Shown: positions 39,825 to 49,489 of the stretch, piece by piece | Numbering within the stretch: position 1 is the stretch's first letter | Layout: each line of letters opens with the position of its first letter | DNA from: Lysobacter panacisoli | GTDB taxonomy: Bacteria; Pseudomonadota; Gammaproteobacteria; Xanthomonadales; Xanthomonadaceae | Direction: 5' to 3' | Length of the DNA stretch: 64,000 nt | Assembly: GCF_009765165.1 (NCBI RefSeq) | Contig: NZ_VLNU01000001.1 | Location: 930,001-994,000, forward strand | Program-made: the position numbers and the translations under genes | Notes under the pieces: model-generated | The model's database searches: none | What the model saw: only the letters and a program-made list of their open reading frames with translations | Told to the model about the DNA's origin: nothing

Positions 39825-39935
39825 CCCCTCTCCCTGGCCGCTTCGCGGCCTGTCCCTCTCCCGCAAGGGGAGAGGGAAGGCACCCACCTCTCCCCTTGCG
39901 GGAGAGGTCGACGCGCAACGCGCGGCGGGAGAGGG
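39825..39935. repeat. Palindromic repeat pair, copy C
   Basis: Modules 39825-39876 and 39887-39935. The first equals copy B (31596-31669) with the middle part removed: same CCCCTCTCCCTGGCCGC start and same GCAAGGGGAGAGGG end. The second is the CCTCTCCCC / GGGAGAGG palindrome followed by a CGCG-rich stretch. They occupy the gap between the two S9 peptidase genes. Confidence 0.8.
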
Positions 39936-39940
39936 CGCTC

Positions 39941-42070
39941 TTACTCGCTCAACTCATTCCACAGGAACGTGAACGCCAGCGCGCTCATGTGCGCGGCCTG
40001 GGCATTGTTGGCCGAACCGCCGTGGCCGCCCTCGATGTTCTCGTAATAGCGCACGTCCTTGCCGGCGTCGAGCATCCGCGCCGCCATCTTGCGGGCATGG
40101 CCCGGATGGACGCGGTCGTCGCGGGTGGAGGTCATGAAGATGACCGGCGGATAGGTGCGCTTCGCGTCGAACAGGTGGTACGGCGAGAAGGTGCGGATGT
40201 AATCCCAGTCGGCGGTGTCGGGATCGCCGTATTCGGCCATCCACGACGCACCGGCCAACAGGTGGCTGTAGCGCTTCATGTCCAGCAGCGGCACCTGCAC
40301 GACGACGGCGCCGAACAGGTCCGGGTACTGGGTCAGCATGTTGCCGGTGAGCAGGCCGCCGTTGCTGCCGCCCTGGATGCCCAGGTGCGGGGTCGAGGTG
40401 ACCTTGCGCGCGATCAGGTCCTGCGCGACCGCGGCGAAGTCCTCGTAGGCCTTGTGGCGGTTGGCCTTGAGCGCGGCCTGGTGCCAGCGCGGGCCGTACT
40501 CGCCGCCGCCTCGGATGTTGGCGACCGCGTACACGCCGCCCTTCTCCAGCCAGCCCTTGCCGACGCTGCCCGAGTACGCCGGCGTCAGCGAGATCTCGAA
40601 ACCGCCGTAGCCGTACAGCAGCGTCGGCGCGGTGCCGTCGAGCTTCAGGTTCTTCGGACGCACGAGGAAGTACGGCACGCGCGTGCCGTCCTTCGACGTG
40701 GCGAAGTGCTGTTCGATCGCGTTCTTCGTGGCATCGAAGAACACCGGCATGGTCTTGAGCACTTCCGGCTTCGAGCCGATCTGCGCCAGCGACAGCGTGG
40801 TCGGCGTCAGGTAGTCGGTGGCGGTGAGCCAAACCGCATCGCTTTCGTCGGCATCCACCGCCGACACGCCCAGCGTGCCGAAGGTCGGCGCGCCGGTGAA
40901 CTCGCTGCGCTTCCACTCGCCCGGGCCCGGCGTGAGCACGCTCAGGCGGTTCTTGACGTCATCGAGCACGTTGAGCACCAGGTGCGACTTGGTCCAGGCG
41001 TAGCTCGACAGCGAGGTGCGTTCGGTCGGCGTGAACAGCGCGGTGAAGTCGCGCTTGCCGGCCATGAAGTCGTCGAAGTTGGTGGCGATGAGGCTACCGG
41101 CGGGCCAGGTCTTGCCGCCGGCCTCATACGGTTCGCGCAGTTCCAGCAGCAGCCATTCGCGATGCGTGTTCTTGCTGGCGGAGTTGGGCACGTCGATCTT
41201 CGCCAGCGTGCCGTCAGCCTTCCGCAGGTACAGCTCGTCGTTGTAGAAGGCCAGCGAACGGCTGACGAGATCGCGCACGTAGCCCGGCGTGTGGTCGCGC
41301 GCCGCGGCGATGTACATGTCGGTCGCCTGGCCTTCGTAGACCACGCGCGCCTGTTCGATTGGCGTGCCGCGCTTCCATTCCTTGACGATGCGCGGATAAC
41401 CCGAGCTGGTCATCGAGCCCGCGCCGAAGTCGGTGTAGACGTAGACGGTGTCGCGGTCGATCCAGCCCAGCGCGCCCTTGGCTTCGGCACGGAAGAAACC
41501 ATCCTTGACCCAGGTCTTCGTCGACAGGTCGAACTCGCGCGTGACGTCGGCGTCGGCGCCGCCGCGCGAGAGCGCGATCAGGCAGCGCGAATAGTCGGGT
41601 CGCAGGCAATCCACGCCATGCCACACCCAGTTCTCGTTCTCGGCCTGGTTCAGCGCGTCGAGGTCGATCACCGTTTCCCACTGCGGCTTGTCCTTGCGGT
41701 ACTCCGCCAGCGTGGTGCGGCGCCACAGGCCGCGCTGGTGCTGCTTGTCCTTCCAGAAGTTGTAGTAGTACTCGCCGATCTTCTCCACGCCCGGGATCTT
41801 GGCGTCGGAATCGAGGATGCCGCGGATGTCGGATTCGAGCTGTTTGAACTGCGGCGTGGCGGCGAGTTCGCCCTCGGACTTCGCGTTCTGCTCGCGCACC
41901 CAGCCCAGCGGCTTGTCGCCGGTGACGTCTTCAAGCCAGGCGTAGGGATCGGTGGATGCATCGGCGGACACGGCGGTGGACTCCTTGGCGGGTGCGGCAC
42001 CGGCCACGGATGCGGCCGCGAGGCCTGCGGAGATCAGCAAGGTCTGGCAGGCATGCGACAGCTTCGGCAT
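39941..42070 (-). CDS. Exported prolyl oligopeptidase (S9A)
   Basis: Serine peptidase of 709 residues, prolyl-endopeptidase type, cleaving short peptides after proline. A signal peptide spans about 1-26. A seven-bladed propeller is followed by the catalytic domain with Ser569 (GGSNGG), Asp651 (TRDDRVHPGHA) and His683 (GGHGGSAN). The start at 42070 has GGAG eight bases upstream; an ATG 14 codons earlier has none. It and the oligopeptidase B-like gene downstream point to periplasmic or secreted peptide use. Confidence 0.94.
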   Translation of the reverse strand: MPKLSHACQTLLISAGLAAASVAGAAPAKESTAVSADASTDPYAWLEDVTGDKPLGWVREQNAKSEGELAATPQFKQLESDIRGILDSDAKIPGVEKIGEYYYNFWKDKQHQRGLWRRTTLAEYRKDKPQWETVIDLDALNQAENENWVWHGVDCLRPDYSRCLIALSRGGADADVTREFDLSTKTWVKDGFFRAEAKGALGWIDRDTVYVYTDFGAGSMTSSGYPRIVKEWKRGTPIEQARVVYEGQATDMYIAAARDHTPGYVRDLVSRSLAFYNDELYLRKADGTLAKIDVPNSASKNTHREWLLLELREPYEAGGKTWPAGSLIATNFDDFMAGKRDFTALFTPTERTSLSSYAWTKSHLVLNVLDDVKNRLSVLTPGPGEWKRSEFTGAPTFGTLGVSAVDADESDAVWLTATDYLTPTTLSLAQIGSKPEVLKTMPVFFDATKNAIEQHFATSKDGTRVPYFLVRPKNLKLDGTAPTLLYGYGGFEISLTPAYSGSVGKGWLEKGGVYAVANIRGGGEYGPRWHQAALKANRHKAYEDFAAVAQDLIARKVTSTPHLGIQGGSNGGLLTGNMLTQYPDLFGAVVVQVPLLDMKRYSHLLAGASWMAEYGDPDTADWDYIRTFSPYHLFDAKRTYPPVIFMTSTRDDRVHPGHARKMAARMLDAGKDVRYYENIEGGHGGSANNAQAAHMSALAFTFLWNELSE

Positions 42071-42169
42071 GGGTGCTCCGGGCACGTTGGAAACGGACCC
42101 GAACGCTAGCACAGGGCACGGCGTCCCCCGCCGTGCCGGAGGTCCTCCGGCTGTGCCGGATGCGGGCGC

Positions 42170-42541: not shown

Positions 42542-42681
42542 CCCCTCTCCCCTCTCCCGACGCGCTACGCGCGTCGACCTCTCCCGCAAGGGGAGAGGTG
42601 GAAGAACACCACCCGCCTCCCTGATTCACCCTCTCCCCTTGTGGGAGAGGGTCGGCCAGCGCAGCTGGCCGGGGAGAGGGG
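42542..42681. repeat. Palindromic repeat pair, copy D
   Basis: Modules 42542-42598 and 42629-42681 are both built on CCTCTCCCC / GGGGAGAGG. The first contains a CGACGCGCTACGCGCGTCG palindrome, the second the GGCCAGCGCAGCTGGCC palindrome. They fill the gap upstream of the small membrane protein gene and directly follow the stop of the WYL regulator gene. Confidence 0.8.
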
Positions 42682-44448: not shown

Positions 44449-47400
44449 ATGCGCGCGCCCGCCGAGCCAGCCATCGATACCTCGCCCGTGATCGGCGACG
44501 AGGTCAAGACCACCACGTGCTACATGTGCGCGTGCCGATGCGGCATCAAGGTGTGGCTCAAGGACGGGCAGATCCGCTACATCCAGGGCAATCCCGACCA
44601 CCCGGTGAACCGCGGCGTGCTGTGCGCCAAGGGTTCGGCGGGGATCATGCAGCACTACTCCCCGGCGCGACTGGACAAGCCGCTGCTGCGCGTGGGCGAG
44701 CGCGGCTCGGGCGAATTCCGCGAGATCGAATGGGACGAGGCGCTGCAGATCGCCACGTCCTGGCTGCGGCCGATCCGCGATCGCAATCCGGATGAACTCG
44801 CGTTCTTCACTGGACGCGACCAGTCGCAGGCACTGACGGGCTGGTGGGCGCAGCAGTTCGGCACCGTCAACTACGCTGCGCACGGCGGATTCTGCTCGGT
44901 GAACATGGCCGCGGGCGGGCTGTACACGCTCGGCGGCAGCTTCTGGGAGTTCGGCGAGCCCGACTGGGAGCATTCGCAGTACCTGATGCTGTGGGGCGTG
45001 GCCGAAGACCACGACTCCAATCCGATCAAGCTCGGGCTGGGCAAGCTCAAGGCGCGCGGGGCGAAGATCGTCGCGGTGAACCCGGTGCGCTCGGGCTACG
45101 GCGCGATCGCCGACGAATGGATCGGCATCCGTCCCGGCACCGACGGCCTGTTCGCGTTCGCGCTGATCCACGAGCTCCTCAAGGCCGACCGAATCGACCT
45201 GGATTACCTGGTGCGCTACACCAACGCGCACTGGCTGGTCGTGCGCAATCCGGGCGGTGCGGATGACGGCCTGTTCGCGCGCGACGCCGAGGGCCATCCG
45301 CTGTGCGCCACGCGCCACGACGCCGATGACACGCACTTCGCCCGCGCCGACGCCATCGAAGTCTCGCCGCGCGTCGTCGGCGAGTACGTGCTCGATGACG
45401 GGCGTCGTGCCATGCCCGTGTTCCACCTCGTCGTCGAACGCTACCTCGACCCGCAGTACTCACCCGACGCGGTGAGCGAACGCTGCGGCATTCCCGCCGA
45501 CACGATCCGCCGCATCGCGCATGAACTCGCGGAAGCCGCGTTCGACCGCGCGTTCTCGCTGCCGGTCGCGTGGACGGACGCGTGGGGCCGTGAACACGCG
45601 CAGATGCAGGGACGTCCGGTGTCGATGCACGCGATGCGCGGCATCAGCGCGCACAGCAACGGTTTCCATACCTGCCGCGCACTGCATTTGCTGCAGTTGC
45701 TGCTCGGCGCGGTGGACGCGCCGGGTTCGTTCCGCTACCAGCCGCCGTTTCCCAAGCCGTTGCCGCCACCGAACCGTCCCGGCAAGGCGCGTCAGGCCAA
45801 CGGCGTGCTCGACGCCGCGCCGCTGGGGTTCGTGCACGGGCCTGAGGATCTGGTCGTCGATGCCGACGGCGCGCCGCGCCGCATCGACCACGCGTTCTCG
45901 TGGGCCTACCCCCTGTCCGCGCACGGCATGATGCACACCGTGATCCGCAACGCCTGGGCCGGCGATCCGTACCGCATCGACACGCTGATGATGTTCATGG
46001 CGAACATGAGCTGGAACTCGTCGATGAACACCACGCAGACGATCGGATGGCTGACCGATCGCGGCGAGGACGGCGAGTACCGCATCCCGCGCATCATCTA
46101 CGCCGATGCGTACGCGTCGGAGATGGTGGCCTACGCCGACCTCGTGCTGCCCGACACCACCTACCTCGAACGCTTCGATGCGATCAGCCTGCTCGACCGG
46201 CCGATTTCCGATGCCGACGGCGCGGCGGATGCGATCCGGCATCCGGTGCTGGACGCGGCGACGCAGTCGCCGGGCCGCGACGTGCGCGGCTTCCAGTCGG
46301 TACTGATCGACCTCGGCGCGCGCCTCGGCCTGCCCGGGCTGGTCAATGAGGACGGTTCGGCGAAGTACCACGACTACGCCGATTACATCGTGCGGCACGA
46401 ACGCGCGCCGGGCGTGGGCCTGCTTGCAGGATGGCGCGGCGCGCACGGCGAGATCGAGGCCAAGGGCCAGCCGAACCCGGAGCAGTTGCAGCGCTACATC
46501 GAACACGGCGGTTTCTGGCGCAGCGAGATTCCCGAGGACGCGCGTTATTTCAAGATGGCCAACCGTGGCTATCTCGACTGGGCGCAGCGCATGGGATTCC
46601 TCGGCCACGCGGATCCGATCGTGCTGCAGCTGTATTCGGAGACGATGCAGAAGTTCCGTCTCGCTGCGCAGGGACACGGTGCGACGCAACCGCCGCCAGT
46701 GCATCGCGAGCGCGTCGCGACGTATTTCGATCCGTTGCCCATCTGGTATGAGCCCTTTGAAGGCGCGCAGATCGAACGCGACAACGCGGACGATCGCAGC
46801 GACGTTGACGCAAGTCAGACCCGCACGGCCATCACTCCCCCTCTCCCGCTTGCGGGAGAGGGATGGGGAGAAGGCAAAGCGCCCGCGTCGTTTGTCGATA
46901 AGGCTTCACCCCTCCCCAACCCTCCCCTGCAAGCAGGGGAGGGAGCAGGGCGGCGAGAGGGCGAAGCTCGCGACAGCGCGCCCGCACACCCCTACCCCCT
47001 CAGCGCCGTCACCCAGCGTCCGATGTTCATGTACCACGCGTGGGGTTCCCAAAACGCGTGGCTGCGGCAGATCGCCACGCGGAACTGGCTGTACCTGCAT
47101 CCGGACACCGCGACGCGCTTCGGCATTGGCGACGAGGATTGGATCGAAGTGACCTCGCACCACGGCACCATCACCGTGCAGGCGAAGTTCGCCGCCAACG
47201 TGCAACCCGACACCGTGTGGACATGGAACGCCATCGGCAAACGCCGTGGCGCTTGGCGCCTGAGCAAGGACGCACCGGAAGGCCGCGAGGGCTTCCTGCT
47301 CAACCACCTGATCTCCGACATCACGCCGCGCGGCGATTACGCCAACGCCGATCCCGTCACCGGGCAGGCCGCATGGTTCGACCTGCGCGTGCGCATCGCC

Positions 47401-47523
47401 AAAGTCACGCAGGCGACGGAGACATCGCCGCAGTTCGCGCCACTGGAGCTGGGCACCGCCGACGACCAGCCGTTGCGCTACGGCGCGCAGTTCCGGAATT
47501 CCAAGGACACCAGGACCCGATGA
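44449..47523 (+). CDS. Molybdopterin oxidoreductase catalytic subunit (SoeA-like) with in-frame repeat insertion
   Basis: Mo/W-bisPGD enzyme of 1024 residues of the DMSO-reductase superfamily. The iron-sulfur site is C24-C27-C31...C59 (CYMCACRC, GVLCAKG). No Tat signal is present, so it is cytoplasmic-facing like SoeA, which with SoeB and SoeC oxidises sulfite at the inner membrane. Molybdopterin domains span about 70-690 and a C-terminal domain about 850-1010 (ITVQAKFAANVQPDTVW). Residues about 795-841 are translated palindromic repeat DNA (PLPLAGEGWGEG) inserted just before YPLSAVTQRPMFMYHAWGS. The substrate is inferred from the operon, not proven. Confidence 0.85.
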   Translation: MRAPAEPAIDTSPVIGDEVKTTTCYMCACRCGIKVWLKDGQIRYIQGNPDHPVNRGVLCAKGSAGIMQHYSPARLDKPLLRVGERGSGEFREIEWDEALQIATSWLRPIRDRNPDELAFFTGRDQSQALTGWWAQQFGTVNYAAHGGFCSVNMAAGGLYTLGGSFWEFGEPDWEHSQYLMLWGVAEDHDSNPIKLGLGKLKARGAKIVAVNPVRSGYGAIADEWIGIRPGTDGLFAFALIHELLKADRIDLDYLVRYTNAHWLVVRNPGGADDGLFARDAEGHPLCATRHDADDTHFARADAIEVSPRVVGEYVLDDGRRAMPVFHLVVERYLDPQYSPDAVSERCGIPADTIRRIAHELAEAAFDRAFSLPVAWTDAWGREHAQMQGRPVSMHAMRGISAHSNGFHTCRALHLLQLLLGAVDAPGSFRYQPPFPKPLPPPNRPGKARQANGVLDAAPLGFVHGPEDLVVDADGAPRRIDHAFSWAYPLSAHGMMHTVIRNAWAGDPYRIDTLMMFMANMSWNSSMNTTQTIGWLTDRGEDGEYRIPRIIYADAYASEMVAYADLVLPDTTYLERFDAISLLDRPISDADGAADAIRHPVLDAATQSPGRDVRGFQSVLIDLGARLGLPGLVNEDGSAKYHDYADYIVRHERAPGVGLLAGWRGAHGEIEAKGQPNPEQLQRYIEHGGFWRSEIPEDARYFKMANRGYLDWAQRMGFLGHADPIVLQLYSETMQKFRLAAQGHGATQPPPVHRERVATYFDPLPIWYEPFEGAQIERDNADDRSDVDASQTRTAITPPLPLAGEGWGEGKAPASFVDKASPLPNPPLQAGEGAGRREGEARDSAPAHPYPLSAVTQRPMFMYHAWGSQNAWLRQIATRNWLYLHPDTATRFGIGDEDWIEVTSHHGTITVQAKFAANVQPDTVWTWNAIGKRRGAWRLSKDAPEGREGFLLNHLISDITPRGDYANADPVTGQAAWFDLRVRIAKVTQATETSPQFAPLELGTADDQPLRYGAQFRNSKDTRTR
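46837..46952. repeat. Palindromic repeat pair inside the SoeA-like gene, copy E
   Basis: Modules 46837-46873 (CCCCCTCTCCCGCTTGCGGG-type palindrome) and 46909-46952 (CCTCCCCTGCAAGCAGGGG-type palindrome) lie within the coding frame. They correspond to the intergenic modules near 39.9, 42.6 and 37.6 kb. The 46-kb reading frame stays open through both, so the repeat is translated. Confidence 0.85.
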
Positions 47524-47735
47524 AATCCATTCGACTCCTCGCCGGCTGGCTGTGCATCGTGCTCGGTTTCGCGGTGATGATCCTGATCAGCTTCGGTGCG
47601 TTCGATCCGGCCGCCACGCCCGGCACGACGACCACGCTGCTGCCGGTGCTGGTGAGCATGCTGCCGAGCGTGAGCCTCGGCATCGCGATCTTCGCGCTGG
47701 GCGTGTGGCTGATCAGCACCGGCCGACGCCGTTGA
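47520..47735 (+). CDS. Small two-helix membrane protein in the soe-like operon
   Basis: A 71-residue protein with two hydrophobic helices (LAGWLCIVLGFAVMILISF; MLPSVSLGIAIFALGVWLI). Its ATG at 47520 overlaps the stop of the catalytic-subunit gene as ATGA, and the iron-sulfur subunit gene begins eight bases after its stop. The tight coupling means it is made together with the enzyme. I recognise no family; an assembly or membrane-subunit accessory role is only a guess from position. Confidence 0.75.
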   Translation: MKSIRLLAGWLCIVLGFAVMILISFGAFDPAATPGTTTTLLPVLVSMLPSVSLGIAIFALGVWLISTGRRR

Positions 47736-47742
47736 GCCGCGC

Positions 47743-48507
47743 ATGACCGACCTGCCACCGCCCTCGAAGAAGAAGCTCGGCCTGGTGATCGACCTGGACA
47801 CCTGCGTGGGCTGCCATGCCTGCGCGGTGAGCTGCAAAGAGTGGAACGCCGGCGGTTTCGCCGCGCCATTGACCGACGAGCAGCCGTACGGCAAGGATCC
47901 GTCCGGCGTGTGGTTCAACCGCGTGCACAGCTATGAAGTCGCTGCCGCGCCCGCGTGCGGCGACACACCCGCGCAGCCGGCGATGACGCTGCACTTCCCG
48001 CGTTCGTGCCTGCACTGCGAGCAGCCCGCATGCGTGACCGTGTGCCCGACCGGCGCAAGCTACAAGCGCGCCGAAGACGGCATCGTGCTGGTCGACGAGG
48101 ACAAGTGCATCGGCTGCAAGCTGTGTTCGTGGGCGTGCCCGTACGGCGCGCGCGAGTACAGCCCGGTCGAAGGCGTGATGAAGAAATGCACGCTTTGCAT
48201 CGACCGCATCTACAACGACAACCTCGACGAATCCGAACGCCAGCCCGCCTGCGTGCAGGCCTGCCCGACGCGCGCGCGTCATTTCGGCGACCTCGGCGAT
48301 CCGGAGTCGGATGTGTCGAAGCTGGTCGCCGAACGCGGCGGCGTCGAACTATTGCCGCAGCTGGGCTACCAGCCGGTGAACCGGTACCTGCCGCCGCGTC
48401 CGCGTCGCGCCGGCGAAACCACCGCGCCCGTCGAACCGGGCGAATCCCTCGACACCGCCGCGCTGCCGCCCGTGCTGCGCTGGCTCGATCGCATCCTCAG
48501 CCGCTGA
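47743..48507 (+). CDS. Iron-sulfur electron-transfer subunit (SoeB/DmsB-like)
   Basis: Ferredoxin-like subunit of 254 residues carrying four Cys motifs for four [4Fe-4S] clusters: CVGCHACAVSC with later CVQACP; CLHCEQPACVTVCP; CIGCKLCSWACP; and CTLCIDRI. It passes electrons between the molybdenum subunit and the membrane anchor. It has no signal peptide, matching a cytoplasmic enzyme. It lies eight bases after the small membrane gene and four bases before the anchor gene. Confidence 0.9.
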   Translation: MTDLPPPSKKKLGLVIDLDTCVGCHACAVSCKEWNAGGFAAPLTDEQPYGKDPSGVWFNRVHSYEVAAAPACGDTPAQPAMTLHFPRSCLHCEQPACVTVCPTGASYKRAEDGIVLVDEDKCIGCKLCSWACPYGAREYSPVEGVMKKCTLCIDRIYNDNLDESERQPACVQACPTRARHFGDLGDPESDVSKLVAERGGVELLPQLGYQPVNRYLPPRPRRAGETTAPVEPGESLDTAALPPVLRWLDRILSR

Positions 48508-48511
48508 CCGC

Positions 48512-49489
48512 ATGCATCCCGCCTTCTCCGTCCTGTTGTTCACGACCCTCTCCGGTGCGGGCTACGGCCTGTTGATGTGGACGTCCGCGATCGTCCTGCT
48601 GCCGTACCTGCAGGGCCGCCCGCCGGCGCAGGCCGTGACCGCGCTGTTGTGGGCGACGTTGCTGCTGGTCGGCCTGCTGCTCACCACGGCCGGGTTGATC
48701 AGTTCGGTGTTCCATCTCGGCAAGCCCGCGCGCGCATGGCGTGCGTTCTCGCAATGGCGAAGCTCATGGCTGTCGCGCGAAGGCGTGTTCGCGGTGGCGA
48801 CGGCGCTGCCGGCGCTCGCGCTGCTGGGCATGATCGCGGCGGTGTTCGTCACCGGCTCCTACGCGCCGCTTGCCGGCATCGCGGCGCCGCTGCTCGCCGG
48901 CGCGATGCTGCTGCTGTCGGTGGCCACGGTGGTGTGCACGGCGATGATCTACGCCTCGCTCAAGCCGATTCCCGCGTGGCGGCAAGTGCTGGTGGTGCCC
49001 GTGTACCTGATGTTCGCGGTGCTGACCGGCTGGCTGGTGCTGATGGCGCTGGCGAACTGGGCGACGCTGACCGACGAGGCGCTGGGCGTGATCGTGCTGG
49101 TGACCTTCGCGCTCGCGCTGACAGCGGCGGTGCTGAAGCTGGTGTACTGGCATCGCATCGATCGCATGCAGATGGGTGCGACGCGTGGCGATGCGGTCGG
49201 CATGCCGGGCCGCGAGGTCGAGGTCTTCGAACGTCCGAACACGCAGGACAATTACGTCAACCGCGAGATGGGCTTCGTGGTGGCGCGCAAGCATGCGCGC
49301 GCGCTGCGGGCGATCTCGCTGCTGCTGTTCGCAGTGGTGCCCGCGCTGGCCGCGTGGCTGGGCTGGGCGCAGCCGGATTGGGCCGGGCCGATCTTCACCG
49401 TCGCCGCGCTGCTGGCGCTGGTCGGAGTACTGGTCGAACGCTGGCTGTTCTTCGCCCAGGCCCGGCACGTCGTCACGCTTTACTACTGA
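48512..49489 (+). CDS. DmsC/SoeC-like membrane anchor subunit
   Basis: Inner-membrane quinone-interacting anchor of 325 residues with about eight hydrophobic helices. The segment SVFHLGKPARAWRAFSQWRSSWLSRE between helices is the DmsC-family signature (shown in two parts: SVFHLGKPARAW and SQWRSSWLSREG). Together with the upstream subunits it completes a heterotrimeric quinone-linked molybdenum enzyme. The gene begins four bases after the iron-sulfur subunit gene. Confidence 0.9.
   Translation: MHPAFSVLLFTTLSGAGYGLLMWTSAIVLLPYLQGRPPAQAVTALLWATLLLVGLLLTTAGLISSVFHLGKPARAWRAFSQWRSSWLSREGVFAVATALPALALLGMIAAVFVTGSYAPLAGIAAPLLAGAMLLLSVATVVCTAMIYASLKPIPAWRQVLVVPVYLMFAVLTGWLVLMALANWATLTDEALGVIVLVTFALALTAAVLKLVYWHRIDRMQMGATRGDAVGMPGREVEVFERPNTQDNYVNREMGFVVARKHARALRAISLLLFAVVPALAAWLGWAQPDWAGPIFTVAALLALVGVLVERWLFFAQARHVVTLYY

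Follow-up and report, generated by a model that had tools for sequence, protein, structure and literature searches.

A probable recurrent landing place for dispersed palindromic repeats within the gene of a SoeA-like molybdopterin oxidoreductase

A SoeA-like gene of the window (the whole stretch of 64,000 nucleotides that was analysed) carries two palindromic repeat modules in frame, and the linker that holds them, directly before the Molydop_binding domain, looks, from the sequences of its relatives, like a place where repeat DNA has landed in frame many times. The best explanation, to which we give a probability of roughly 0.83, is that repeats insert widely and that the rare copies retained by selection are those which are in frame, contain no stop and lie in linkers that tolerate them.

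According to this explanation, REP-like palindromic units would insert at numerous positions in Lysobacterales genomes, and almost all of the copies that survive would be intergenic. A few proteins with short, unconserved linkers would tolerate extra residues, and a copy would survive in such a linker if its length were a multiple of three and its frame free of stops. In the enzyme of the window, module A would have come first and module B would have settled beside it later; other lineages would have gained different repeats, or lost theirs. The inserted peptide would most likely be a neutral, flexible loop, and we infer its placement in a surface loop from the domain border, the homologues and the tolerance of length. 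An alignment with a solved structure was also considered as evidence of exposure; no claim on exposure is made from it, because it was unreliable through the SoeA linker.

Structure of the insert

The features of the gene, its neighbours and the insert are listed in Table 1.

Table 1. Positions in the window of the SoeA-like gene, its insert and the adjoining genes.
Feature	Positions	Strand	Basis
SoeA-like molybdopterin oxidoreductase, catalytic subunit, 1024 aa	44449–47523	+	PF04879, PF00384, PF01568
Expanded linker, residues 777–848, 216 nt = 72 residues	46777–46992	+	Comparison with 95 loci
Module A: conserved 5' flank CAGACCCGCACGGCCATCACTCC, stem and tail; borders approximate	46812–46876	+	Alignments
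Palindrome of module A, CCCTCTCCCGC-TT-GCGGGAGAGGG	46839–46862		Sequence and palindrome count
Module B: 78-nt addition; borders uncertain by about 3 nt	46909–46986	+	Alignment, 216 vs 138 nt
Palindrome of module B, CCCTCCCCTGCAAGCAGGGGAGGG	46920–46943		Read from the sequence
Molydop_binding domain, residues 854–956, intact 3' of the insert	47008–47316	+	Domain search
Short hydrophobic ORF between catalytic and Fe-S subunits, 3-nt overlap with the first gene	47521–47736	+	Read from the sequence and ORF list
4Fe-4S subunit	47743–48507	+	PF13247
DmsC-type membrane anchor subunit	48512–49489	+	PF04976

Both palindromes lie between the conserved WYEPFEGAQ and YPLSAVTQRPMF, and the reading frame crosses them without a stop, with YPLSAVTQRPMFMYHAWGS coming right after. 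The sequence-only reading had described the frame as open through two palindromic modules and the downstream domain as intact, and both statements were confirmed. It had placed the insert at 46837–46952; an extra stretch does exist at this place, but it is larger, comprising the whole expanded linker of Table 1. It had also assigned both modules to one repeat family seen elsewhere in the window. Dispersed copies do occur elsewhere, but modules A and B are different repeats that arrived separately, and most other CTCTCCC copies of the own genome belong to another subtype, with a stem followed by ACAGGCC...GGCCAGGGAGAGGGG.

The gene was present in all 11 sampled genomes of the same genus, and seven of them had a site of 3–5 residues. 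A 138-nt linker with module A and without module B was found in G004, G008 and G011, and a 141-nt linker with a different insert in G006. Module B sits between GGCTTCA and CACCCC, which are contiguous in G004 and G011, and CAC is present on both sides of this junction (one junction, compared by eye for a target-site duplication). Among the loci examined, module B joined module A in the lineage of the window only.

Within the 5' flank of module A, CAGACCCGCACGGCNATCACTCC precedes the stem. Outside SoeA, module A with its 5' flank was detected in the own genome at L156 (88% over 76 bp) and L135 (96% over 51 bp) and in same-genus genomes (loci L214, L215, L222 and L223; genomes G001, G003 and G008). 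Lysobacter sp. MMG2 (locus L069) is a named relative that has module A. Copies of module B were found in G004 and G011 (89% over 72 bp) and also in G007, and weaker ones within the window (89% over 37 nt and 82% over 39 nt). The flank pattern AGACCCGCACGGC, searched with one mismatch, gave 10 and 7 matches vs 11 and 22 in the control; because it did not exceed the control, the module A flank was based on the alignments.

The insert region folded better than its shuffled versions, both as DNA (z −2.77; 3 of 200 shuffles equally good) and as RNA (z −4.67; 0 of 200). Rfam was also searched, at a relaxed threshold, and returned 20 matches, none of which reached the gathering score; they were mostly with eukaryotic microRNA models and were taken as hairpin look-alikes.

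The SoeA-like gene

Fe4S4, Molybdopterin and Molydop_binding domains were identified in the product by profile search, and genes for Fe-S and anchor subunits adjoin, the composition of a SoeA-type enzyme. In the NCBIfam search of the protein no model reached its cut-off, and "SoeA-like" is for this reason used as a description only; relatives are named molybdopterin oxidoreductase, selenocysteine-containing dehydrogenase or SoeA in their sources.

Purifying selection acts on the gene both before and after the insert. Between the window and inserted relatives, dN/dS was 0.08–0.10 before the site and 0.15–0.17 after it, similar to the values of the empty pair G009/G002 (0.098 and 0.188, respectively). 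The pair L012/L074, with 0.44 after the site, gave the sole high value among the pairs tested.

Dispersed repeats in the genome

Palindromes of the form CTCTCCC-N3-8-GGGAGAG were present in 96 copies in the 3.88-Mb genome (reversed control, 0). They are short, dispersed, high-copy and mostly intergenic, as are members of the GTAG/CGTC REP superfamilies. At least 22 copies were found in 10 of the 11 other same-genus genomes and in the order-level G013, the remaining same-genus genome having 19. Copy number is not decisive for the state of the linker, G003 having 189 palindromes and a short linker. G013 contained 92 CTCTCCC palindromes with a different, near-uniform loop (CTCTCCCACTCGCGTGGGAGAG), matches with Y1-type transposases and a short SoeA linker.

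The repeats are depleted from genes. In-frame, gene-internal clusters in the own genome were 3 of 72 for CTCTCCC, 0 of 43 for CTTCTCCC and 0 of 31 for ATTCCCGC, whereas, of 600 places taken at random from the stretches concerned, the same test scored 226 as coding, and in-gene copies are therefore rare. They are undercounted, because the test is insensitive, as the last figure indicates, and blind to imperfect palindromes; it covered 90 of the 96 palindromes of the CTCTCCC type, and in each family one cluster at the edge of a stretch was passed over. The rarity may reflect either selection or a bias of insertion. The in-gene copies detected are in frame, free of stops and located in unconserved linkers. 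Two features of protein-coding palindromes were observed: the repeat is in frame and stop-free in a conserved ORF, and the same repeat also occurs outside genes.

Within 14 nt of 86 CTCTCCC palindromes the tags GTAG, CTAC, CGTC and GACG were counted 2, 2, 8 and 13 times, and at random places 4, 3, 13 and 14 times; ends of the GTAG/CGTC kind were not enriched. The search for a Y1-type (RAYT) transposase gave no match in the own genome and, as a control, was positive in 5 of 14 named genomes. Y1_Tnp was over the cut-off in none of the 11 same-genus genomes, with G001 just below it, and the family was present in four order-level genomes. We infer an insertion reaction, i.e., a "mobile" repeat.

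Recurrence at the site before the Molydop_binding domain

A total of 95 loci was compared, comprising the window, 80 relatives (the best of 411 in a GTDB scan) and 14 further loci (11 same-genus and 3 same-order); because only the best 80 of 411 were kept, the sample leans to close relatives. Some genomes are included twice under two handles, and 88 different rows were used for the tree. The linker length was a multiple of three in 94 of the 95 loci. The exception, L082, is a partial match in which the match before the site ended early, and it was excluded from the state count, leaving 94 rows. Linkers of at least 48 nt were present in 30 loci and shorter ones in 65, with lengths of 9–18 nt (3–6 residues) in 59, and none of the 30 inserts contained a stop.

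Matches with dispersed repeats of the fetched loci, with the SoeA sites masked, were obtained for 23 of the 30 inserts vs 2 of 30 codon-shuffled controls. A repeat motif was likewise found in 23 of 30, vs at most about 2.5% of 600 shuffles, and 24 inserts passed one test or the other. The remaining six (L007, L020, L026, L029, L071 and L076) revealed no repeat by match or motif. Five motif classes were recognized at the site: CTCTCCC, CTCCCC, CTTCTCCC, a CGTC-type palindrome (L019, L025 and L066) and TTCGACAGGCTCA (L034 only), with CTTCTCCC alone in L009 and L011. Since CTCTCCC, CTCCCC and CTTCTCCC are alike and one insert can score twice, these were counted as one group; the inserts at the site thus belong to at least three unrelated groups of repeats.

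The sequence-only reading had proposed, from one case, that a dispersed repeat had been added in frame and tolerated, and that relatives be aligned with it. The comparison of short-linker and inserted relatives bears this out (short linkers in 7 of the 11 same-genus genomes, repeat alignments, purifying selection) and adds that the site is recurrent. The finding that it had named as contrary, the same segment conserved in sequence outside repeat-bearing genomes, was not made: inserted relatives carry different repeats, and in the order-level G012, G013 and G016 the linker measures 3 residues.

In a tree from which the linker was left out, at least 20 changes between the filled and short states are required, and starred (well-supported) branches force 12 of these; shuffled labels need 25.6–25.8 on average, with 2 to 4 of 500 shuffles as low as the observed number. 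As the observed number is below that of the shuffles, descent accounts for part of the pattern. Sister pairs of opposite state were found in L008 vs L047 and in G006 vs G010.

One ancient insertion, inherited vertically and followed by many losses, would explain the likeness of the inserts by shared descent. In agreement with it, filled and short states are somewhat clustered on the tree, and inserts of the RTAITPPLP...GEGWGEG type with similar flanks are shared by the window, G004, G008, G011 and Luteimonas relatives. Nevertheless, unrelated repeats occupy the same place (L019, L025 and L066; L034; L009 and L011), module B lies atop module A in the window only, and the order-level relatives are short, which refutes a single ancestral insertion for the whole set and makes this account unlikely. 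On a smaller scale it fares better: within the genus, a single gain of module A with losses is quite possible, and some RTAITPPLP-type inserts, whose flanks are common to several genera, may represent one old insertion with later losses.

Other landing sites and enzymes

Among 63 aligned SoeA proteins, insertions of at least 10 residues occurred, besides the ends, at only three internal junctions, 778/845 (n = 31), 291/295 (n = 20) and 607/608 (n = 6). The extra residues at junction 607/608 are low-complexity peptides. At junction 291/295, where the window is short, the linker length was divisible by three in all 95 loci and was at least 75 nt in 26, of which 21 had a repeat motif and 20 matched a dispersed repeat (counts made without shuffled control). 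Both this and the first site were filled in 12 loci, and either of them in 44 of 95. The protein P0116 has tandem DERPPAPTGEI-type peptide repeats in the region of this junction, which suggests that duplication can lengthen a segment once it is inserted.

Near repeats of the own genome, two other enzymes with in-frame inserts were found. The dihydroxy-acid dehydratase (L134:1182–3281, own genome C1, minus strand) has an in-frame repeat insert of about 50 residues, STSPARGEV...PSPLAGEGQAR. It aligns with the solved homologue 6ovt at 74–222 and 275–669, with 223–274 as extra, and about 10 of the 120 closest homologues, own included, have similar peptides there (by eye, without shuffled control). 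The fused isobutyryl-CoA mutase IcmF (L229:2–3001, own genome C2) has repeat-derived residues in the linker after the GTPase domain. It aligns with 4xc6, whose linker is shorter, at 5–455 and 547–758, and 29 of the 120 closest homologues, own included, are repeat-like there (alignment and crude motif count, without shuffled control). The inserts of SoeA and IcmF, two of the three own-genome cases, are near domain borders.

We lean slightly towards a clade-wide extension, in which unrelated repeats would fill, empty and refill the linkers of SoeA-like proteins, dihydroxy-acid dehydratase and IcmF throughout the Lysobacterales, would be a continuing source of new protein sequence and would affect further proteins alike.

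Reading phase and decay of palindromes

In 21 dispersed units, one plus-strand phase was open in only 4, and each of the other five in 17 to 21. At the first SoeA site 10 of 12 in-gene plus-strand tails are read in one open phase, as are 8 of 10 at the second site, so that phase use is more uniform than the open-frame filter alone predicts. Shared descent accounts for part of this uniformity, and selection on the inserted peptide may also lie behind it. Of the CTCTCCC palindromes, 5 of 16 had retained perfect arms at the first site and 7 of 11 at the second; given the latter figure, decay of the hairpin is not general.

These data bear on a second alternative, that the inserts are kept as useful, either as loops that bind a partner or as mRNA hairpins that slow the ribosome ahead of the last domain. 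The strong RNA fold, the position of SoeA and IcmF inserts near domain borders, the uniform phase and the perfect palindromes of the second site speak for usefulness, while the lack of a long linker in 65 of 95 loci, the variation of peptides and repeats between lineages, the few perfect arms at the first site and the closely related pairs of opposite state speak against it; we consider it very unlikely. A sequencing or assembly artefact, or decay of the gene after insertion, is hardly credible and was rejected as a general account: many loci of the relatives are from draft genomes or MAGs and L012/L074 gave a high dN/dS after the insert, but 94 of 95 loci keep the frame, the 30 inserts are free of stops, dN/dS is low in the other pairs tested, and module A was found independently in G004, G008 and G011.

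Comparison with known systems

REP/BIME units are moved by RAYT transposases and form paired inverted palindromes with a conserved tail. The loci L132 and L214 resemble them in having paired inverted palindromes with a conserved tail, and differ from them in that neither the own genome (no match) nor any of the 11 same-genus genomes (none over the cut-off) gave Y1_Tnp.

GTAG- and CGTC-tagged REPs are described in PMC3733652 as high-copy palindromes that are mostly intergenic, some of them lying wholly within ORFs of known proteins; also reported are double insertions into a single ORF, different REPs at nearly the same position of recB in X. campestris and X. oryzae, and in-frame REPs in bacteria including Xanthomonas and Stenotrophomonas. 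The repeats of the window are likewise high-copy and mostly intergenic, with some inside ORFs, and the CGTC-type inserts of L019, L025 and L066 look like members of the CGTC superfamily, judged by resemblance. Unlike tagged REPs, the CTCTCCC repeats of the window show no enrichment of tags, and the recurrence at a single site extends over several groups of repeats and many lineages. Palindromic repeats translated in frame in conserved enzymes are also known as Rickettsia RPE and other protein-coding MITEs (PMC2229807, PMC10969869), and a guanylate kinase bearing an RPE is reported to be made and active, with changed substrate affinity (PMC2229807). The present case is similar in having a palindromic repeat in frame in a conserved enzyme, here known at the level of sequence; it differs in concerning free-living Gammaproteobacteria with genomes of about 4 Mb and the refilling of one linker by several families.

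Protein-coding palindromes are thus already known, and the window would represent, from its sequence, the same kind of phenomenon. In the literature searched (titles and beginnings of abstracts), no report was found that describes repeat inserts for SoeA, for IcmF or for proteins of Lysobacter. As far as this search extends, the scale is new, i.e., the refilling of one linker by several groups of repeats throughout an order, as are the nested addition and the like behaviour of three enzymes of one genome.

The site constitutes a natural insertion experiment with many repetitions at one place in a protein, and it shows linkers of conserved enzymes accepting tens of extra residues. Close relatives with and without the insert are available among free-living bacteria, several of them cultured, named species, so that the old question of the neutrality or usefulness of protein-coding palindromes becomes testable. 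Length variation and low-complexity segments in proteins of this kind should be interpreted with caution, as they can be repeat DNA rather than domains.

Other repeat arrangements

Inverted repeat pairs at 39825–39935 and 42550–42673 of the window flank a 723-aa ORF on the minus strand (39941–42112), presumably a prolyl oligopeptidase. At about 2531–2700 of L138 (own genome C1, about 2131430–2131600), a GAGGT-like unit of five bases is repeated in a long tandem array between two palindromes.
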